DNA from: Bacteroidales bacterium | GTDB taxonomy: Bacteria; Bacteroidota; Bacteroidia; Bacteroidales; ML635J-15 | Assembly: GCA_017994175.1 (NCBI GenBank) | Contig: JAGOLH010000007.1 | Coordinates: 1 to 64,000, forward strand | Length of the DNA stretch: 64,000 nt | Direction: 5' to 3' | Part shown: piece after piece, positions 3,272 to 13,290 of the stretch | Position numbering within the stretch: position 1 is the stretch's first letter | How the letters are laid out: each line of letters starts with the position of its first letter | Translations under genes and position numbers: made by a program | Notes under the pieces: generated by a model | What the model saw: only the letters and a program-made list of their open reading frames with translations | Told to the model about the DNA's origin: nothing | The model's database searches: none

Positions 3272-6200
3272 ATGTCCGGCAATTTCAATCCAATTCCGTT
3301 AAAAAAACTACTGCAGATCATTCTTAATGAATTGCACACTTCGGGGAGTGTATTCGGTATTCCTTCGGAATTATTCTTTATTCCCGATAGTACTAACACG
3401 TATAAAACAACACAATTCAATACTCTGATTGACACGCCCGTTGGAGTTGCAGCAGGTCCGCATTCTCAAATGGCACAAAATATTATTGCAGCATGGCTAA
3501 TGGGTGCCCGATACATTGAACTAAAAACGATTCAGACACTTGATGAACTGGAGGTGCCGAAACCATGTATCGATATGCAGGACGAAGGCTATAACTGTGA
3601 ATGGTCGCAGGAACTCAGAATAAACCAAAGCTTCAATGAATACCTTAATGCCTGGATTATAATACATATCCTTCATCAGGAACTGGGTTTTTCCAACAAC
3701 GTCAATACCGTTTTCAACATGAGCGTTGGCTATAACCTCGAAGGTATTATGCAGGCAAATGTGCAATGGTTCTTCGAAAAAATGAACGATTGCACGGTAG
3801 AGCTTACGGAAAAACTTGAAAGTATTAAGGATTATTATCCTGAGATTACTGCATTGAATATCCCCTCGAAAATTTCGGATAACATTACTCTGTCGACGAT
3901 GCACGGATGCCCTGCCAACGAAATTGAAAGTATCGCTTTCTATCTGCTTACCGAAAAAAAGCTGCATACATACATTAAGCTCAACCCCACCTTGTTGGGT
4001 CCAGATCAATTGCGACAAATTCTCAACCATACGTCTAAATTTAAAACTCAAGTCCCTGATATTGCCTTTGAGCACGATTTAAAATACCCGGATGCTTTAA
4101 AAATCATCAGATCATTGCAGAAAACTGCAACTGATCACCGGCTTTGTTTCGGTGTGAAGCTTACGAATACGCTTGAATCGGTAAATAACAAAAATATTTT
4201 CAGCGACAACGTAGAAATGATGTACATGAGCGGACGGGCACTTCACCCAGTGTCGATTGCACTGGCAAAGAAACTAAACGATGATTTGCAGGGCGAAATT
4301 CCCTTTTCGTTTTCTGCCGGAGTGGATGCATTTAATATTTCAGACCTAATTTCCTGCGGGTTCCAAACCATTACCGTTTGCTCCGATCTGCTTAAACCGG
4401 GCGGCTATATGCGGCTGAATCAGTATTTCGAAGAACTTTCCAAGAACTTCTCTGATAAGGGTGTTTCAAATATCAAAGATTTCATCCTTGCTACTGCAGG
4501 TGTCGATGATATAACTCAGGCAAAGTCGATTAACCTGTCAACATACTTTAACGAAACCATCCAGTCGAGTCGGTATCGCAGGGAATATATTACAACTCCA
4601 TCAATTAAAACCCAGCGGCAACTCGGTAAGTTCGATTGCATATCGGCACCATGTAAAGACAGCTGCGCAACAAACCAGGATATTCCCAATTACATGTACC
4701 ACACTTCGCAATCCGATTTCAAAAGCGCATACAGGGTAATTCTCCAAACCAATCCATTCCCTGCAATTACAGGTATGATCTGTGACCATTTGTGTCAGAA
4801 TAAATGCACACGAATCAACTACGATTCAGCACTGCATATCAGGGAGGTAAAGCGGTTTATTTCGGAACAGAACGAAGTTCAGCGCGACGTGTACGGAGCA
4901 AAAAACGACGTAAAAGTTGCTGTTGTCGGAGCAGGGCCCAGCGGTTTATCATGTGCTTATTATCTTGCACTTGCCGGTTTTCAGGTTGATGTTTTCGAAG
5001 AAAAATCACAGGCCGGGGGCATGGTTCAATTTGCTGTTCCCGGGTTCCGCTTGAGCGATGAGGCTATTCGCAGCGATTTTAAACGCGTCGCAGATCTGGG
5101 AGTTAATATTCATTACAATTCAAGAATTGATACTGAAAAATTTGAGCTTCTCCGCAAAAGCTACACCTATATATACCTCGCACCTGGTGCTCAGCTTTCA
5201 GCAAATTTTACCATTGAAGGGTATAATTCCAGAGGTGTTATCGACTCACTTGGATTTCTGTTCAAGGCAAGAAAAAGAGAAGATACCGGTATTGGTAAAA
5301 ATATCGTTATCGTTGGGGGCGGAAACACTGCCATGGACGCTGCACGGACTGCATGGCGGCTTGTTGGGAAAGATGGAAAAGTAACTATTGTTTACCGGCG
5401 AACCATAAACGAAATGCCTGCCGATCAGGGCGAAATTAAAGCCGTCATCGAAGAAGGAATAGAGATAATAGAGCTGGTAGCCCCCGAAAAAGTGATTTCG
5501 TATAATGGAAGAGTAAGCGCCTTGCTCTGCAGCAGAATGGAGCTTTCGGGGAAAGATGCCTCTGGTCGCCCCAAACCAGTAAAAATTCCAAATTCAGAAT
5601 TCGAAATTTCTTGCGATACAATCATCCCAGCACTGGGTCAGATGACAAATATTGATTTTGTACAAAACGATATGCTAGCACCTGAAGCATCAGGATATAT
5701 GACAAAACTCGAAAACATTTTTATCGGTGGCGATGCAAAGCGCAATGCTGCAACAGCCATTATTGCTATTTCTGACGGACGTCGCACTGCAGAGGAAATT
5801 ATACACAAAGCAGCCCCTTGGCTCGAAATACCGCATCTGCACAACATTAAAAACCTTACAAAGAAAGATCTGATGCTAAAACGTGCAAGACGTATTTCAG
5901 CAATCAAACTGTGGGAAGCACCTCCGGAAACAAGGCAGTCGTTTGCTCCGGTAAGCAGAACACCCGATAAGCAAAGCATAGTGACTGAATCAGGTCGCTG
6001 CCTGTACTGTGATGAAATTTGCAATATATGCACTACCGTTTGCCCCAATTTCGCAAACCGTTGTTACGAAATTGCGCCAATGGAATTCATGTTGAAAAAA
6101 GCCCAAATTTCGGAAAACGGGAAAATTGAATTGATTGATGACGTTTTGTTTTCCATTCAACAAAAATACCAAATTATAAACATTGCAAATTTTTGCAATG

Positions 6201-6538
6201 AATGTGGCAATTGCAACACATTCTGCCCAACTTCGTCTGCACCGTATATCGAAAAACCTAAAATTTGGCTAACAGCTGAGTCGTTCGCCAGTGCCACCAA
6301 AGGGTATTATTTCGACAGCCAAACAAATGCCCTACTTTTCAAAAGAGATGAGCAACTTTCTACATTGACTTTAAAAAACGGAGTATATATTTTTGAGACC
6401 GATATATGTATTGCACATTTCAACGCTACTAATTTCTCCCTTGAAGAAATCGCTTTAAAAATCCCATCACAGGAGGCCTTGCACTTTTATGATGCTGCGA
6501 TTATGATGATTCTTTACAATGTTGTAAAAAATTTGTAA
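3272..6538 (+). CDS. ygfK: YgfK-like iron-sulfur flavin oxidoreductase ('putative selenate reductase' family)
   Basis: The product has 1088 residues and three parts. The N-terminal part (about 1-430) resembles dihydroorotate dehydrogenase-type barrels (STMHGCPANEIES near 208, GRALHPVSIAL near 320). The middle is GltD/NAPDH-like: a cysteine-rich helical region (CISAPCKDSC near 455, CDHLCQNKC near 503), an FAD Rossmann motif VGAGPSGLSCAYYLA near 548 and an NAD(P) motif VGGGNTAMDAA near 680. The C-terminus carries ferredoxin-like cysteine clusters (CLYCDEICNICTTVC near 910, CNECGNCNTFC near 975). E. coli YgfK is of similar length. The 'selenate reductase' label is historical; in gut anaerobes ygfK belongs to the purine/uric-acid degradation cluster. 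It is the first gene of a forward cassette ending with ssnA. A role in electron transfer to a purine-derived intermediate is inference. Confidence 0.9.
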   Translation: MSGNFNPIPLKKLLQIILNELHTSGSVFGIPSELFFIPDSTNTYKTTQFNTLIDTPVGVAAGPHSQMAQNIIAAWLMGARYIELKTIQTLDELEVPKPCIDMQDEGYNCEWSQELRINQSFNEYLNAWIIIHILHQELGFSNNVNTVFNMSVGYNLEGIMQANVQWFFEKMNDCTVELTEKLESIKDYYPEITALNIPSKISDNITLSTMHGCPANEIESIAFYLLTEKKLHTYIKLNPTLLGPDQLRQILNHTSKFKTQVPDIAFEHDLKYPDALKIIRSLQKTATDHRLCFGVKLTNTLESVNNKNIFSDNVEMMYMSGRALHPVSIALAKKLNDDLQGEIPFSFSAGVDAFNISDLISCGFQTITVCSDLLKPGGYMRLNQYFEELSKNFSDKGVSNIKDFILATAGVDDITQAKSINLSTYFNETIQSSRYRREYITTPSIKTQRQLGKFDCISAPCKDSCATNQDIPNYMYHTSQSDFKSAYRVILQTNPFPAITGMICDHLCQNKCTRINYDSALHIREVKRFISEQNEVQRDVYGAKNDVKVAVVGAGPSGLSCAYYLALAGFQVDVFEEKSQAGGMVQFAVPGFRLSDEAIRSDFKRVADLGVNIHYNSRIDTEKFELLRKSYTYIYLAPGAQLSANFTIEGYNSRGVIDSLGFLFKARKREDTGIGKNIVIVGGGNTAMDAARTAWRLVGKDGKVTIVYRRTINEMPADQGEIKAVIEEGIEIIELVAPEKVISYNGRVSALLCSRMELSGKDASGRPKPVKIPNSEFEISCDTIIPALGQMTNIDFVQNDMLAPEASGYMTKLENIFIGGDAKRNAATAIIAISDGRRTAEEIIHKAAPWLEIPHLHNIKNLTKKDLMLKRARRISAIKLWEAPPETRQSFAPVSRTPDKQSIVTESGRCLYCDEICNICTTVCPNFANRCYEIAPMEFMLKKAQISENGKIELIDDVLFSIQQKYQIINIANFCNECGNCNTFCPTSSAPYIEKPKIWLTAESFASATKGYYFDSQTNALLFKRDEQLSTLTLKNGVYIFETDICIAHFNATNFSLEEIALKIPSQEALHFYDAAIMMILYNVVKNL

Positions 6539-6604
6539 TTTAATTGATCCAATAAAACCCGCATGAACTTTTTCGGATATTCATCAGATATTATTTATAA
6601 ATTT

Positions 6605-6622
6605 CGGCAATTTTCATTAAAT
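6605..6622 (+). repeat. Second copy of 18-nt upstream element shared with ygfK
   Basis: CGGCAATTTTCATTAAAT here and CGGTAGTTTTCATTAAAT at 3222-3239 differ at two positions. This copy ends 10 bp before the start of the PLP enzyme gene, the first copy 32 bp before ygfK. A weaker resemblance (ATTCATTAATTT) occurs near 8178-8189 before the third gene. It may be a regulator binding site common to the cassette, or partly a promoter. Confidence 0.35.
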
Positions 6623-6632
6623 CTACAGTAAT

Positions 6633-8117
6633 ATGATTCAACTGATTGATAAAGTCAGTAACGAAAAAGCATTGCAAAATGCCGTAAAACGTTTCAAAGA
6701 CAGAGGAATAGTGCTTCCAACATTTGCTCAGCAGCAGAACCCTGAGCTTATACCCTCCAAAGTAAAAAATGAGTTAAAGAATATTGGCTTATGGGAAATC
6801 AACCCTCTCAACCTGTTTAGAATAACATGGAAAAACGAGCCAAAAGAAAAAGGTGGGCTATATGGCAAAGTGAATTACATTGAATTACCCAAACAAATTA
6901 CCGGGGTTAATGCAAGAATTGTACTGCTGATTGGGAAATGGTTTCCTACAGGAGCACATAAAGTCGGAGCTGCCTATGGTTGCCTTGCACCCAGAATCAC
7001 TACAGGTGGTTTCGACCCAACCTTTCATAAAGCGGTGTGGCCTTCCACCGGGAATTACTGCCGTGGCGGTGCTTTCGATTCCAAGCTGATGGGGACCGAA
7101 TCGGTAGCTATTTTACCGGAAGAAATGAGTCAGGAACGCTTCAACTGGCTGCGTAACGAGATTGGCTCTGAAGTTATTGCCACACCCGGATGCGAGTCGA
7201 ATGTTAAGGAAATCTACGATAAATGCTGGGAAATAAGAAGAACCCGGCCCGATTGCATAATATTCAATCAGTTTGATGAGTTCGGCAATGCTGCGTGGCA
7301 CTATAACATCACCGGCAAAGCCATAGAAGAAGTGTACAACGATGTAAAAACCCCGAAAAGCAAACTGTCAGCCTATATATCAGCTACCGGCTCAGCCGGC
7401 ACCATTGCAGCAGGCGACTATCTCCGGACAATTGCCCCAATGATAAAAGTAGTTGCCTCGGAAGCATTACAGTGCCCCACCTTGCTGATGAACGGTTTTG
7501 GCGGGCACCGTATCGAAGGGATAGGTGATAAACACGTTCCTTGGATCCACAATGTAAAAAATACCGATGTGGTTACTGCCATCGACGATGAAGATTGTAT
7601 GCGTCTGCTCAGGCTTTTTAACGAAAAAGAAGGGCAGAAATATCTTAAAGAAGCCGGTGTTGACGAAAATGTAATAAGGAACTTACATCTCATCGGAATT
7701 TCAGGTATTGGGAATTTGCTTTCTGCAATAAAAACCGCCCGCCATTTCGAAATGAATGAAAACGATATTTTAGTAACTATTGCCACCGATTCTGCCGATA
7801 TGTATCAATCGCGTATTGCTGAACTTAATGCAGACAGAGGTGACTACAATCAAAATCAAGCCATTAAAGATCTGGAGAAGTGTCTATTCGGCCAGAAAAC
7901 CGATTTTATGAAAGAACTCAGCTACAGCGACCGTAAATCCATTCATAACTTGAAATACTATACATGGATCGAACAGCAGGGGAAAGAGGTGGAAGACCTG
8001 AATCAGTTGTGGTACGATGGAGATATCTGGGATAGTCTTTTCCATCAGATCAAGGTTTGGGATGAACTGATCACAGAATTTAACAAAAGAACAGGCTTGT
8101 TAAAACAATACGAGTAA
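6633..8117 (+). CDS. PLP-dependent enzyme, fold type II (cysteine synthase/CBS-like), purine-cassette associated
   Basis: The product has 494 residues. The PLP-binding lysine is probably K110 in the motif GAHKVGAAYG. STGNYCRG (138-145) corresponds to the substrate-carboxylate loop of cysteine synthases, and ATGSAGTIAAG (251-261) to the phosphate-binding glycine loop. The protein is longer than typical cysteine synthases (about 310 residues), with an extra N-terminal region of about 90 residues and a long C-terminal tail. It is not a clear match to YgeX diaminopropionate ammonia-lyase in the motifs I can compare, but that is a fold-II lyase too. Its place between ygfK and xdhD-like genes suggests it handles a beta-substituted or diamino acid made during purine breakdown, which is inference. 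Spacing from ygfK is 94 bp. Confidence 0.8.
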   Translation: MIQLIDKVSNEKALQNAVKRFKDRGIVLPTFAQQQNPELIPSKVKNELKNIGLWEINPLNLFRITWKNEPKEKGGLYGKVNYIELPKQITGVNARIVLLIGKWFPTGAHKVGAAYGCLAPRITTGGFDPTFHKAVWPSTGNYCRGGAFDSKLMGTESVAILPEEMSQERFNWLRNEIGSEVIATPGCESNVKEIYDKCWEIRRTRPDCIIFNQFDEFGNAAWHYNITGKAIEEVYNDVKTPKSKLSAYISATGSAGTIAAGDYLRTIAPMIKVVASEALQCPTLLMNGFGGHRIEGIGDKHVPWIHNVKNTDVVTAIDDEDCMRLLRLFNEKEGQKYLKEAGVDENVIRNLHLIGISGIGNLLSAIKTARHFEMNENDILVTIATDSADMYQSRIAELNADRGDYNQNQAIKDLEKCLFGQKTDFMKELSYSDRKSIHNLKYYTWIEQQGKEVEDLNQLWYDGDIWDSLFHQIKVWDELITEFNKRTGLLKQYE

Positions 8118-8140
8118 CGATAACTCACAATAATTTATCG

Positions 8141-8170
8141 AAAGCGTAGGGCATAAACTACGCTTTTTTT
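8141..8170 (+). terminator. Intrinsic terminator or attenuating hairpin after the first PLP gene
   Basis: AAAGCGTAG (8141-8149) pairs with CTACGCTTT (8158-8166) around an 8-nt loop and is followed by a T-run to 8170. It sits between two genes of the same cassette, so it may lower downstream expression rather than end the operon completely. Confidence 0.75.
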
Positions 8171-8237
8171 GCGAATAATTCATTAATTTAGCACATATAT
8201 AAAACGTGTTGTTTTGAAAAGAACCGGAAATAAATTC

Positions 8238-9455
8238 ATGTACCGTTGCGTTGATTGCGGAAAAGAATACAGCAACGAAAGTACTATGTACCTGTGCCCT
8301 TCGTGTAGCACAGGTAACACATCTGCTGCTCCTCCAAAAGGTGTTTTGAAAACTATGTATGACTATAACTCCCTGATAAAAAAGGGTGATTTCAGCTATC
8401 ACAAAAAAAATCACTTTATCGAACTGCTTCCTATACTCGATATTTCGAGTATGCCTCAATCGCGGGTTGGAAACACACCGTTATACATGCTTAATGAACT
8501 CAGCCACAAAAAGCTCCCTTTCCGGTTGTTTTTAAAAGACGACTCGCAAAATCCGACTTTTTCTTACAAAGACAGGGCTTCGGCGCTTGTGTCGGCATTT
8601 GCTAAAGAAAATGGGTACAACACTATTGTTGCAGCATCAACCGGTAATGCCGGGTCTTCGCTGGCAGGGATGTGTGCCATACAACAGCAGAAAGCCATTG
8701 TTATGGTTCCTGAGACCGCTCCGGTTGCAAAACTGACTCAGATAATCATGTACGGCGCATATATAGTACCTGTAAAAGGCAACTACGACGATGCATTCGA
8801 TTTAAGTATTGAAGCAACGCAGGAATTTGGATGGTATAACCGCAATACTGCATATAACCCGCTTACGGTGGAGGGCAAAAAAACAGCTGCTTTCGAAATT
8901 TTTGAACAGCTGGACTTCACTGTTCCTGACCGAATTTTTATTCCTGCCGGTGACGGAGTGATTTTATCAGGAGTATATAAAGGGTTCGAAGACTTGCTGA
9001 AACTCGGGATTATTGAGAAAATGCCTGTGATAGTGATGGTGCAATCGGAAGGCAGCGATAATTTGTCGAGAAACATCGACTCAGATGTCTTCACAATGAA
9101 ACCCAGTAGCACGATTGCCGATTCGATTTCGGTGGACATTCCCAGAAATTTTTATATGGCAAAACAATTTATCAGCAATTATCATGGGGAACATATCACA
9201 GTAACAGATAATAAAATAATTGAAGCCTCGAAATTGCTGGCTGAAAATACCGGCATTTTCGCAGAACCCGCTGCTGCCACAGCTTTTGCAGGAATGTTAG
9301 CTTACACCGATGATAACTTACTGGCCGAAAACTCCGTGAATGTTGTAATGCTTACAGGCAGTGGACTCAAAGACCTGAAATCAGTCGAAAGAATTCTGAA
9401 TATACCTGAATCGATTGATCCGGATATTAGAAAACTGAAACATCTTTTCAAATGA
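8238..9455 (+). CDS. Threonine synthase-like PLP enzyme with N-terminal zinc ribbon
   Basis: The product has 405 residues from ATG 8238; a TTG at 8214 would add eight residues, but MYRCVDCGK is the usual beginning of the family. A zinc ribbon comes first (CxxC ... CPSC near residues 4-23). The PLP lysine is in NPTFSYKDRAS, followed by the substrate loop ASTGNAGSS and the glycine loop PAGDGVILSG. These are hallmarks of threonine synthase (ThrC) and related fold-II lyases. The usual ThrC neighbours (thrA, thrB) are absent, and the gene overlaps the xdhD-like gene by 4 bp (ATGA), so it is translationally coupled to it. A role in the cassette, for example deamination of a diamino or hydroxyamino acid, is more likely than threonine biosynthesis, though this is inference. 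Confidence 0.8.
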   Translation: MYRCVDCGKEYSNESTMYLCPSCSTGNTSAAPPKGVLKTMYDYNSLIKKGDFSYHKKNHFIELLPILDISSMPQSRVGNTPLYMLNELSHKKLPFRLFLKDDSQNPTFSYKDRASALVSAFAKENGYNTIVAASTGNAGSSLAGMCAIQQQKAIVMVPETAPVAKLTQIIMYGAYIVPVKGNYDDAFDLSIEATQEFGWYNRNTAYNPLTVEGKKTAAFEIFEQLDFTVPDRIFIPAGDGVILSGVYKGFEDLLKLGIIEKMPVIVMVQSEGSDNLSRNIDSDVFTMKPSSTIADSISVDIPRNFYMAKQFISNYHGEHITVTDNKIIEASKLLAENTGIFAEPAAATAFAGMLAYTDDNLLAENSVNVVMLTGSGLKDLKSVERILNIPESIDPDIRKLKHLFK

Positions 9456-12001
9456 TACATTTCATTTTAAATGGTACCGTACAACATTATACGGGCAATT
9501 CCGAAAATTCGCTATTGCACTATTTGCGAATCGAAAAACATATCACTTCGGTAAAAGACGGCTGCTCGGGGCAGGGAGTATGCGGTGCCTGTACGGTAGA
9601 AATCAACGGAAAAGCGCGGCTTGCCTGTACTGTTAAAATGAAAAATCTTGAAGGCGCTGAAGTGTTTACACCCGAAGGCTTCCCCGAATATGTTAAAGAT
9701 GCCATTGCAACAGCTTTTGTGAACAACGGAGCAGTGCAATGTGGTTTTTGTACTCCCGGTTTTATTAGCCGTGTAAAGGTACTTCTTCAGGAAAACCCGA
9801 ATCCCTGTATCGATGAAATCCGCAAAGCTATTAAACCCCACTTGTGCCGCTGTACGGGGTATAAGAAAATTGAGGAAGCCATAAGTAATGCTGCTAAAGT
9901 TATACGTGAAAATAAAACCGCAGAAATTCGTACCACATCCGGGAAAATAGGTGTGTCGCACCCCAAATATGATTCATACCGCACAGCCTTGGGGCAACGT
10001 AAGTTTGTTGATGATATTTTTGTTGACGGGATGTTGTTTGCAGCGCTCAAATTCAGCGATTATCCGAAAGCAAAAGTCTTACACATTGATATCGTTGAAG
10101 CAAATAAACTGCCTGGCGTCCATCGCGTTTTTACGGCAGCCGATATTCCTGCTGCTCACTTGATTGGGTTGATTTACAACGACCAGTATGTAATGATTGG
10201 CAACGGTGAAACAACCCATTATATCGGAGATGTGATAGCTGGTGTTGTTGCCGAATCGGAAGAAATTGCAAGAGAAGCCATTGCCCTGATTAAAGTAGAA
10301 TACGAAGTGCTTACTCCGATAACCGATGTCTTTCAGGCAATTCAAGGCGATCGGGTGCATCCCGCGAAACCGAATAATTTCGACACAACCTCCTTTACAA
10401 TCGGGAATGCAGATGATGCCCTCCGGAAGTCGAAATATGTAGTTGAGGATCATTACGAGACCCAGCGTATTGAGCATGCTTTCCTCGAAAAAGAAGCTGC
10501 TATTGCCCAGCCAGATGGGAACGGGGGTATAGCAGTGCTCAGTCAAAGTCAGGGAATTTACGAGGACCGCAGGCAGATTGCCATGATTTTGGGGATCCCC
10601 GAAGAGAAAGTGCATGTTACACTGGTTCCCAACGGTGGCGGCTTTGGCGGGAAAGAAGATATGAGTGTGCAGGGCTATGCAGCCATGTTTGCATTTTTGA
10701 CCTACAAACCCGTTAAAATTACCCTGAGCCGCGAAGAATCGATTCGCTTGCACCCGAAACGGCACCCGGTTTACATCGACATCTCCCTTGGTGCAGATGA
10801 AAACGGGAAGCTCACAGCATTAAAACTTCGGGCTGTCGGTGACACCGGGGCGTATGCTTCGGTGGGGACCAAGGTGATGGAACGCGTTGCCGGACATGCA
10901 GCGGGGGGCTATTTTATCCCTGAAATCGATATCGAGGCAAAAACTGTGTATACCAACAATATTCCCTGTGGTGCCATGCGTGGATTCGGAGCAAACCAGG
11001 CAGCCTTTGCCCTCGAAAGCTGTATTGATGTTTTATGCCGAAAAGCCGGATTCGACCGATGGAAATTTCGCTGGGATAATGCACTTGTCGACGGACTTAG
11101 AACCTCAACAGGACAAAAGGTGTTTGGCGTTGGAATTAGAGCATGCCTTGAAGCGGTTAAAGATGACTTCTGTAATGCCAAATTTGCAGGATTGGCATGT
11201 GCAATAAAGAATTCCGGTGTCGGGAACGGAATGATTGACGAATCAAAGGTAAAAATCGAAATCGTATCAGGGACTCATATACGTCTGCACCATGGTTGGA
11301 CCGAAATGGGTCAGGGAGTACACAACATGGCTCTGCAAACCTTATGCGAAGAAACCTCCGTTTCTCCCGATATCATTGAGGTGATTGTTGATACTGAGGC
11401 ACAGATCAAGACAGGCATGACCACATCATCGAGAGCAACCGCACTTGTTGGACTGGCTGTAATAAACGCAGCCAAAGCTTTAAAGGAAGATCTAGCGACA
11501 AATGCCCTTGCCGATTTGGCAGGCAAAACTTATTTCGGACAGTTTATTTGCGATTGGACTACCAAGCCCGGCGAAATAGGAAAAGAACCGGTGATTCATT
11601 ATTCCTACGGTTATGCAGCCCAGGTGTGTATTCTTGATGATTCTGGAAACATTTCTAAAATGATTGCTGCTCACGATGCCGGTAAAATCATGAACCCTAT
11701 GCTCTTCGAAGGTCAGATTCAGGGGGGTGTACACATGGGGCTGGGTTATGCTTTATGCGAAGATTTGCCAATGGAAAACGGATATCTGGTCAGCGACAAA
11801 ATGAAAGACCTGCAAATACTTCGAGCCCATGAAACCCCCGAAATTGTAGTGAAAGGTGTTGAAGTGAAAGACCCCGTGGGTCCATACGGTGCAAAAGGCA
11901 TCGGGGAAATCGGTCTGGTGCCCACTGCTGCTGCTGTAGCCAATGCTTTCTACGCTTACGATGGAATTAAAAGAACCAAACTCCCCCTGAAAAGAAAATA
12001 A
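9452..12001 (+). CDS. xdhD: XdhD-like molybdenum hydroxylase, fused [2Fe-2S] and molybdopterin domains
   Basis: The product has 849 residues. Residues 1-160 carry two [2Fe-2S] clusters: a plant-type site (CSGQGVCGAC, then a later Cys) and an alpha-helical site (QCGFCTPGF, HLCRCTGY). The rest is the xanthine dehydrogenase large domain, with GGGFGGKED, AMRGFGANQAAFALES, EMGQGVHNMALQ and the C-terminal GAKGIGEIG, whose Glu is the usual catalytic base. The same fusion occurs in E. coli XdhD (about 956 residues). No FAD subunit (YgfM/XdhB) or XdhC chaperone lies beside it, so electrons must leave through another partner, possibly the YgfK-like protein (inference). The substrate is probably a purine or related heterocycle. 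The start overlaps the upstream stop, and the ssnA gene follows after 11 bp. Confidence 0.88.
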   Translation: MIHFILNGTVQHYTGNSENSLLHYLRIEKHITSVKDGCSGQGVCGACTVEINGKARLACTVKMKNLEGAEVFTPEGFPEYVKDAIATAFVNNGAVQCGFCTPGFISRVKVLLQENPNPCIDEIRKAIKPHLCRCTGYKKIEEAISNAAKVIRENKTAEIRTTSGKIGVSHPKYDSYRTALGQRKFVDDIFVDGMLFAALKFSDYPKAKVLHIDIVEANKLPGVHRVFTAADIPAAHLIGLIYNDQYVMIGNGETTHYIGDVIAGVVAESEEIAREAIALIKVEYEVLTPITDVFQAIQGDRVHPAKPNNFDTTSFTIGNADDALRKSKYVVEDHYETQRIEHAFLEKEAAIAQPDGNGGIAVLSQSQGIYEDRRQIAMILGIPEEKVHVTLVPNGGGFGGKEDMSVQGYAAMFAFLTYKPVKITLSREESIRLHPKRHPVYIDISLGADENGKLTALKLRAVGDTGAYASVGTKVMERVAGHAAGGYFIPEIDIEAKTVYTNNIPCGAMRGFGANQAAFALESCIDVLCRKAGFDRWKFRWDNALVDGLRTSTGQKVFGVGIRACLEAVKDDFCNAKFAGLACAIKNSGVGNGMIDESKVKIEIVSGTHIRLHHGWTEMGQGVHNMALQTLCEETSVSPDIIEVIVDTEAQIKTGMTTSSRATALVGLAVINAAKALKEDLATNALADLAGKTYFGQFICDWTTKPGEIGKEPVIHYSYGYAAQVCILDDSGNISKMIAAHDAGKIMNPMLFEGQIQGGVHMGLGYALCEDLPMENGYLVSDKMKDLQILRAHETPEIVVKGVEVKDPVGPYGAKGIGEIGLVPTAAAVANAFYAYDGIKRTKLPLKRK

Positions 12002-12012
12002 AACAATGCACT

Positions 12013-13290
12013 ATGGCTCTATTACTTAAAAACGCCACATATCTCGACTGGAGAAATTTTAATATATCGGTTCGCGACATATGGGTTGAAGAAGGATTGC
12101 ACGGAAAAATCAGGTTCTTCAATAATGACGATTCTGAGTTGAAACAAATGCATGCCGAAACGCTGGACTGCACAGATAAAATAGTAACCAAGTCGTTTGC
12201 CGTTGGACATCATCATGCATATTCAGCTCTTGCAAGAGGCATGAATCCGCCAAAAATCGACCCGAAGAATTTTATCGAAATTCTGAAATACATCTGGTGG
12301 ACACTCGACAAATGCCTTGATCCAAAAACTATTGAATATAGTGCGCTCACAACAGCAATTGCCTGTGCAAAAGCCGGTTCGAGCTTTGTAATTGATCACC
12401 ATGCTTCGCCATTTTCAGTAGGAAACTCCCTGAACATCATTGCAGATGCATTCGGCAAAATAGGAATTTCTCATTTACTGTGCTACGAGATTTCGGACCG
12501 CGACGGTGAAGAGATTGCACAACAAGGCCTTGCCGAAACCCAAAAGTACCTGCAGAAGCATCAGGGCCTGGTCGGGCTGCATGCGTCGTTCACCGTTGCA
12601 GATACCACACTGAAACAGGCAGTTGAAATCATGGAAAAGTTCAATTCCGGTATACACATTCATGTGGCTGAAGACATTTCCGACCAGGAGCATTGCCTCA
12701 ACACGTATAAAAAAAGGGTTATAGAGCGTCTTCATGAAGCCGGGGCAACAAATAGTTCAAAGACAATTCTTGCTCATTGTTTGCACCTAAGCGATAATGA
12801 AAGAGAAATCATCAGGAATTCACCATGCTGGGTAGTTCAGAATATGGAAAGCAATCTGAACAATAAAGTTGGTTTGTTTTCAGGAAAAAATCTGGGTGAA
12901 AATATCATGCTGGGAACCGATGGTATGCATAGCGATATGCTGAAAAGTGCACGTTTTGCCTATTTTGCAGGCCAGTTACATGATGACATCAGCTATAATC
13001 AGGCATACAGCCGGTTCAGGAATGTACATAATTATCTGAGTACTAACAATTTTACCGGCGATGGTGAAAACAACCTGGTAGTGCTTGATTATAAATCGCC
13101 TACAGCAATGCATAGCTCTAATTTTCCCGGGCATTTTTTGTTTGGTCTGGAAGCCGGGCAGGTTATACATTTAATATCGAATGGCAGGCTGATACTTAAA
13201 GACCGTATTTTGCAAACTATAGACGAAGACAAAGTGCTAAAAGAATCGCGTAAGATTGCAACTAAGTTATGGCAAAAAATGAGTTTGTGA
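12013..13290 (+). CDS. ssnA: SsnA-like metal-dependent amidohydrolase (aminohydrolase/deaminase)
   Basis: The product has 425 residues in the amidohydrolase superfamily. Metal-site motifs are visible in order: GHHHAYSALARGM near residue 64 (HxH), GLHASFT near 195, HIHVAED near 217 (zinc His), AHCLHLS near 257 and LGTDGMHSDM near 303 (Asp). The phrase SALARGM is characteristic of SsnA. SsnA proteins belong with YgfK and XdhD in the anaerobic purine cluster and are thought to deaminate or open purine-related rings. It closes the forward cassette and converges on ddl with only 38 bp between them. No strong terminator is visible there. Confidence 0.88.
   Translation: MALLLKNATYLDWRNFNISVRDIWVEEGLHGKIRFFNNDDSELKQMHAETLDCTDKIVTKSFAVGHHHAYSALARGMNPPKIDPKNFIEILKYIWWTLDKCLDPKTIEYSALTTAIACAKAGSSFVIDHHASPFSVGNSLNIIADAFGKIGISHLLCYEISDRDGEEIAQQGLAETQKYLQKHQGLVGLHASFTVADTTLKQAVEIMEKFNSGIHIHVAEDISDQEHCLNTYKKRVIERLHEAGATNSSKTILAHCLHLSDNEREIIRNSPCWVVQNMESNLNNKVGLFSGKNLGENIMLGTDGMHSDMLKSARFAYFAGQLHDDISYNQAYSRFRNVHNYLSTNNFTGDGENNLVVLDYKSPTAMHSSNFPGHFLFGLEAGQVIHLISNGRLILKDRILQTIDEDKVLKESRKIATKLWQKMSL

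Follow-up and report, generated by a model that had tools for sequence, protein, structure and literature searches.

Five adjacent genes of a Bacteroidales bacterium, ygfK-PLP494-PLP413-XDH-ssnA, probably belong to a Bacteroidales version of the reductive pathway that degrades urate without oxygen, in which PLP413 seems to replace the diaminopropionate ammonia-lyase DpaL (YgeX) and PLP494 is an additional enzyme. PLP494 and PLP413 are pyridoxal phosphate (PLP) enzymes. The genes lie in a window, the whole stretch of DNA that was analysed, comprising bases 1-64000 of the 71.7-kb contig 120 of a 3.17-Mb draft genome (129 contigs, 95% complete). The cassette is real and conserved, and it most likely represents the known pathway, split over two loci and with an altered end. 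The identities of the genes, the presence of the set in the genome, the gene order, the co-occurrence of the genes, the near-exclusion of PLP413 and DpaL, and the lack in PLP413 of an arginine of threonine synthase (ThrC) were all computed here.

Composition of the cassette

The initial annotation had described five genes in this order and in the same direction, and all five open reading frames (ORFs) were recovered head to tail on the + strand with their coordinates unchanged. The features of the locus are as follows.

3272..6538, + strand: ygfK, NAD(P)H-dependent Fe-S flavoprotein, predicted to carry out the reductive dearomatisation of yanthine; TIGR03315, 906.9 bits
6633..8117, + strand: PLP494 (494 amino acids), PLP enzyme of the CysK/CBS fold with N- and C-terminal extensions; PF00291
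8142..8170, + strand: intrinsic-terminator-like hairpin with a T-run in the gap between PLP494 and PLP413; AAGCGTAG-GGCATAAA-CTACGCTTTTTTT
8214..9455, + strand: PLP413 (413 amino acids), ThrC-like PLP enzyme, proposed replacement for diaminopropionate ammonia-lyase; alternative in-frame ATG at 8238
9452..12001, + strand: XDH, fused [2Fe-2S]/molybdopterin hydroxylase with XdhAC-like architecture; predicted to reduce urate to yanthine or to hydroxylate purines
12013..13290, + strand: SsnA-like aminohydrolase, predicted to open dihydroyanthine; conserved metal motifs

The locus had been called a purine- or urate-type cassette of variant form, and this description held. YgfK exceeded the curated cutoff of its family (835) and shared 35% identity with its E. 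coli counterpart in an alignment of 1054 columns, XDH scored 883 bits for TIGR03311 against a curated cutoff of 830, and SsnA models were the best families for the last ORF. XDH is a fused 2Fe-2S and Mo protein without an FAD domain, an architecture that resembles the form without an FAD subunit described in clostridia, and it shares 25% identity with E. coli XdhD. The SsnA-like protein is 32% identical to E. coli SsnA, and its His/Asp metal motifs, including DHHAS and GTDG, are conserved.

Other urate-type genes were observed in the order. Contig 147 of genome G130 (locus L093) carries a second, distinct urate-type cluster without PLP494, containing YgeY, YgfK (45%), an SsnA nearer to the Cetobacterium type (35%), a hydantoinase, an XdhD-like and an XdhC-like gene. 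In G073, a genome with DpaL and no PLP494, a second divergent YgfK (37%) lies off the main cluster (contig 36:40417-43659).

Further pathway genes lie on other contigs

The initial annotation had also noted that ygeW, ygeY and a hydantoinase gene were absent. This was true of the window; all three genes, however, are neighbours on contig 38 of this genome, with scores above the cutoffs for HyuA (TIGR02033, D-hydantoinase, 486 against 393), YgeW (TIGR03316, 630 against 500) and YgeY (TIGR03526, 512 against 321). YgeW and YgeY were 79% and 76% identical, respectively, to the copies that adjoin the cassette in genome G214. A carbamate kinase gene had likewise been noted as absent; a carbamate-kinase-like gene is present on contig 41 (338 bits, just short of the cutoff of 358). 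The next gene on that contig, which resembles YgeW weakly (23%), probably encodes another carbamoyltransferase.

In a panel of 64 pathway-positive and 16 pathway-negative genomes, YgeW was detected in 58 and YgeY in 62 of the positive genomes, and neither was detected in any negative genome. With YgfK, XDH, SsnA and the genes on contigs 38 and 41, the window's genome holds the reductive urate set published for E. coli and clostridia (PMC12507026; PMC12990295) apart from DpaL/YgeX, for which there was no match in this genome, and YgfM. The latter was not seen at the cassette or at the contig 38 locus, and a genome-wide search for it was not made. The proposal of a variant route or of another heterocycle had been drawn from the missing genes; since HyuA, YgeW and YgeY were found on contig 38 and adjoin the cassette in relatives, we rejected that argument. 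The lack of DpaL and the presence of PLP413 in its slot instead led us to classify the cassette as a variant of the reductive urate pathway.

PLP413 as a putative replacement for DpaL

PLP413 was found in 58 of the 64 pathway-positive genomes and in none of the 16 negative ones. DpaL was detected in four of five pathway genomes without PLP413 and in only one of the 58 with it (63 genomes, Fisher p = 4e-5). At two loci DpaL occupies the PLP413 slot, in the order PLP494-DpaL-XDH in G246 and YgfK-PLP494-DpaL in G026. Near-exclusion combined with a shared slot is what would be expected if two enzymes of equal function displaced each other.

PLP413 is a ThrC-like PF00291 protein with a Cys-rich N-terminus, and its predicted model matches the folds of ThrC, IlvA and serine racemase. 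NCBI models would label it threonine synthase, as it scored 174.3 for TIGR00260 against a cutoff of 167.1. The PLP413 family motif, however, is NRNTxxNPLTxEGKKT, compared with NSVNPYRxEGQKT or a close variant in solved ThrC sequences. The position equivalent to Arg160 of T. thermophilus ThrC, a residue that binds the phosphate of the substrate phosphohomoserine (structure 1v7c), is Thr in PLP413 and Leu or Met in other members, and it was never Arg in some 60 PLP413-family proteins from many phyla. We found no other ThrC in the window's genome, and the best match there to the homoserine kinase (ThrB) model TIGR00191, the one model used, reached 46 bits against a cutoff of 168. After the searches for ThrB, ThrC and the motif, a housekeeping ThrC was judged unlikely.

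PLP413 is also distinct from DpaL. The DpaL models TIGR03528, TIGR01747 and PRK08206 were absent among the best 25 of 44 PLP413 matches, and the TDGNHG motif of DpaL reads STGNAG in PLP413. If the Asp of this motif serves the D-isomer, as in E. coli DpaL, PLP413 may be L-specific. PLP413 is likely a new terminal enzyme that replaces DpaL. The initial annotation had regarded two fold-type-II PLP enzymes as unusual for such a cluster. YgeX/DpaL of the known pathway already belongs to fold-type II, so a PLP enzyme as such is not alien to the route; the remark is right, however, in that neither PLP494 nor PLP413 is DpaL. The suspected difference at the carbon-skeleton end of the route was borne out by the apparent replacement of DpaL with PLP413 and the addition of PLP494.

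PLP494 is a conserved partner

PF00291 is the sole family of PLP494, which is CysK-like and has no equivalog match. Its predicted model (predicted local distance difference test score, 85.8) resembled CysK, cyanoalanine synthase and CBS best among solved folds, with about 25% identity to CysK/CBS and long extra termini. PLP494 scored 101.9 against a cutoff of 350.95 for the CysK model and 36.8 against 600 for the cysteate synthase CapA model (NF053679), and its assignment as cysteate synthase, SbnA or CysK was rejected because the scores fell so far under the cutoffs. The PTGxHK and PSTGN motifs are invariant in PLP494 orthologues, and 113 residues are near-invariant over 120 of them.

Relatives with 57-82% identity to PLP494 were present, among the matches listed from named genomes, in Bacteroidota, Chloroflexota, Clostridia, Elusimicrobiota, Planctomycetota, Ignavibacteriota, Synergistota, Acidobacteriota and others. 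At the best 80 named PLP494 loci, a PLP413-like gene lay within 10 kb in 43 and a urate marker within 10 kb in 42. A SAR324 genome has the order YqeA-YgeW-YgeY-DpaL-PLP494. PLP494 thus accompanies the pathway repeatedly, together with either PLP413 or DpaL, although none of the published steps calls for it. Its place in the set is well supported within this order. A beta-substituted alanine, late in the route, is its putative substrate.

More distant PLP494-like proteins are encoded on Rhizobium and Bosea plasmids (loci L196 and L197; 43% and 41% identity). They keep 91-92 of the 113 near-invariant residues, with several changed, and their neighbours are M20 peptidase, TauE/SafE, RidA and transporter genes. 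Based on the residue changes and the gene context, we judged their function to be different; each is perhaps another beta-substituted-alanine lyase.

Conservation of the cassette within the order

Co-occurrence was examined in 295 genomes of the window's order. A close PLP494 orthologue (54-83% identity) was carried by 76 genomes, YgfK by 82 and a close SsnA by 79. The counts of genomes with both genes, the first only, the second only and neither were 74/2/8/211 for PLP494 and YgfK (Fisher p = 1e-57), 72/4/7/212 for PLP494 and SsnA (p = 4e-55) and 76/6/3/210 for YgfK and SsnA, with p about 1e-55 or lower for co-occurrence of the three. These p values overstate independence because the sampled genomes are related; the carriers nonetheless span many families. 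About a quarter of the sampled species in the order carry the set. None of PLP494, YgfK and SsnA was found in three genomes from the window's own family, which suggests either that the genes were acquired horizontally or that this sister genus has lost them.

All five genes occurred in the order of the window at 17 of the 40 relatives' loci fetched, arguing against the random association that the initial annotation had named as its refutation. In many relatives the cassette runs on into a gene for a protein of about 207 amino acids, with HyuA, YgeW and YgeY alongside. This conserved protein, encoded between SsnA and HyuA at L053:16265-16894 and also at L057, L059 and L050, had no Pfam or NCBIfam match and may be a transporter or another membrane protein; no gene for it was seen next to HyuA in the window's genome. 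Frequent companions of the cassette are a MocA-like gene and a regulator of the Lrp/AsnC type. At L053:8714-9175 and in many other relatives, a divergent gene for a 153-amino-acid Lrp/AsnC-type protein lies between ygfK and PLP494; it is not in the window, and its product is a candidate regulator of the set.

The intergenic gaps in the cassette are, in order, 94, 96, -4 and 11 nt. The ORFs of PLP413 and XDH thus overlap by 4 nt and ssnA starts 11 nt past XDH, suggesting that PLP413, XDH and SsnA are expressed from one transcript. Since the hairpin separates PLP494 from PLP413, two transcription units are possible. The hairpin region (8118-8180) had a folding energy of -15.3 kcal/mol (z = -3.95). 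The hairpin was not among the terminators listed by a simple scan, and a promoter scan gave no more matches than expected by chance.

Proposed pathway

The chemistry of the reductive urate pathway was taken from PMC12507026 and PMC12990295; the individual reactions here, the substrate of PLP413 and the step of PLP494 are inferred. The fused Fe-S/Mo protein would reduce urate to yanthine (2,8-dioxopurine), YgfK would reduce the yanthine ring, and SsnA would open it, yielding ureidomethyl-hydantoin. The products of the contig 38 genes, HyuA, YgeW and YgeY, would then cleave the hydantoin ring and strip off both ureido groups, leaving 2,3-diaminopropionate, and ATP could be regained from carbamoyl phosphate by the carbamate-kinase-like protein. 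Cleavage of 2,3-diaminopropionate to pyruvate and ammonia, the last step, would fall to PLP413 instead of DpaL/YgeX. The most likely role of PLP494, proposed only tentatively, lies at the same C3 end, where it might invert albizziin or diaminopropionate from the D- to the L-configuration for an L-specific PLP413, or might itself carry out a beta-elimination.

A broader and more tentative reading, to which we give somewhat less than even weight, is that reductive urate degradation commonly ends, across many phyla (among them Bacteroidota, Chloroflexota, Planctomycetota, Clostridia and Synergistota), in a module made up of PLP413 and PLP494, an enzyme pair that has so far gone unrecognised. DpaL would be one alternative to this module, and PLP494 would perform a step absent from the published pathway, for example the stereo-inversion of albizziin or diaminopropionate.

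Alternative explanations

Several observations weigh against the proposed pathway. The segment containing Glu606 of E. coli XdhD, a residue proposed to govern product choice (PMC12507026), was absent from the window XDH in our alignment, so the direction and product of XDH are not assured. The SsnA-like ORF scored 337 for TIGR03314 against a cutoff of 455, and the SsnA proteins of five Bacteroidales relatives were likewise below it (295-363 for the tested proteins). Genome G089 has both DpaL and PLP413, and G066 has neither. No marker lay within 10 kb at 26 of the best 80 named PLP494 loci, a group that includes loci on short contigs and many from clades of Elusimicrobiota, Clostridia and Chloroflexota. 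In a Lachnospiraceae locus (L165:3-3520), serC-like and serA-like genes directly follow PLP494, an order hinting at a tie to phosphoserine metabolism. PLP494 persists beside DpaL in three Bacteroidales genomes and in SAR324, which weakened the idea that it merely makes up one half of a replacement for DpaL. Finally, absences from a draft genome of this completeness are not certain.

The low identity of the SsnA-like protein to the E. coli enzyme would also suit a cassette whose enzymes, though of the same kinds, act on some other ring, either a different purine or one resembling a pyrimidine, as would an XDH that belongs to TIGR03311 rather than to the XdhD type of E. coli and is without the Glu606 segment. 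We consider this unlikely, because HyuA, YgeW and YgeY are present and co-inherited, which fits the release of diaminopropionate from urate, and because DpaL can occupy the PLP413 slot. It is likewise improbable that PLP413 is a housekeeping threonine synthase and PLP494 a cysteine synthase, biosynthetic genes placed among urate genes by chance. PLP413 does exceed the ThrC cutoff (174 against 167) and is the sole ThrC-like protein found in the genome, and PLP494 does resemble CysK; however, PLP413 is confined to pathway-positive genomes in the panel and nearly exclusive with DpaL, it lacks the Arg160 equivalent in a genome with no ThrB over the cutoff, and PLP494 tracks YgfK (74 of 76 carriers).

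An explanation of PLP494 that is compatible with the rest of the proposed pathway places it in sulfur/selenium or phosphoserine metabolism, where it would serve the pathway indirectly, for instance by supplying selenium or sulfur for the molybdenum enzyme or by making cysteine from an unusual donor. Its CysK/CBS-like fold, the copies away from urate genes, including the one beside serC/serA-like genes, and its persistence beside DpaL are consistent with such a role. Its pairing with PLP413 in many phyla, its tracking of YgfK in the order and its scores far under the cysteine synthase and cysteate synthase cutoffs argue otherwise, and we regard an indirect role as rather unlikely. Stereo-inversion or elimination at the C3 end was ranked above it, as a possibility not far short of even.

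Relation to published surveys

The pathway was mapped through the SsnA family in PMC12507026 and, with ygeX among the markers, in four phyla in PMC12542679. Bacteroidota are not among the phyla named in either paper, and oxygen-free breakdown of uric acid in this phylum is thus absent from both lists. Because the Bacteroidales SsnA proteins tested fall below the family cutoff and most carriers have no DpaL match, such surveys could miss them. We found no paper on this variant in the open-licence literature, the part that was searched, so priority is not established. DpaL acts on both isomers (PMC12507026), and the D-configuration of pathway intermediates has been raised as a point (PMC12990295). 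With the PLP413/PLP494 pair it becomes possible to test whether this configuration applies to the intermediates and, given that DpaL is lacking, how such a lineage copes with it.

Comparison with known systems

The E. coli cluster (ygeW-ygeX-ygeY-hyuA-yqeA ... ygfK-ssnA-ygfM-xdhD; PMC12507026) has YgfK, SsnA, an XDH homologue, HyuA, YgeW and YgeY in common with the Bacteroidales set, and a carbamate-kinase-like gene is also available in the window's genome. The Bacteroidales set differs in being split over two loci, in having two other PLP enzymes where no YgeX/DpaL was found, in its divergent SsnA, in a TIGR03311-type XDH without the XdhD Glu606 segment, and in that no YgfM was seen in either locus. 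The clostridial and fusobacterial form (C. difficile, C. sporogenes and Cetobacterium), which has XdhAC or XDH, UacX, UacY and DpaL, shares with it an XDH with fused Fe-S and Mo domains, SsnA, a hydantoinase and YgeY, whereas here YgfK stands for UacX, YgeW for UacY, and PLP413 with PLP494 for DpaL.

Among single enzymes, PLP413 shares its fold with threonine synthase (ThrC, TIGR00260; B. subtilis 6cgq, T. thermophilus 1uim) and is 34% identical to B. subtilis ThrC in structural alignment, but it has Thr at the Arg160 equivalent, GKK in place of GQK and a urate-gene context, and it is not tied to thrB. With DpaL/YgeX (TIGR03528, PDB 4d9g) it shares the operon slot and the fold-type II class of PLP enzymes, whereas it belongs to a different clade and has STGNAG for TDGNHG. 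PLP494 has the catalytic-domain fold and STGN loop of CysK/CBS, from which it is set apart by the low identity, the long extensions at both termini and scores far under the family cutoffs.

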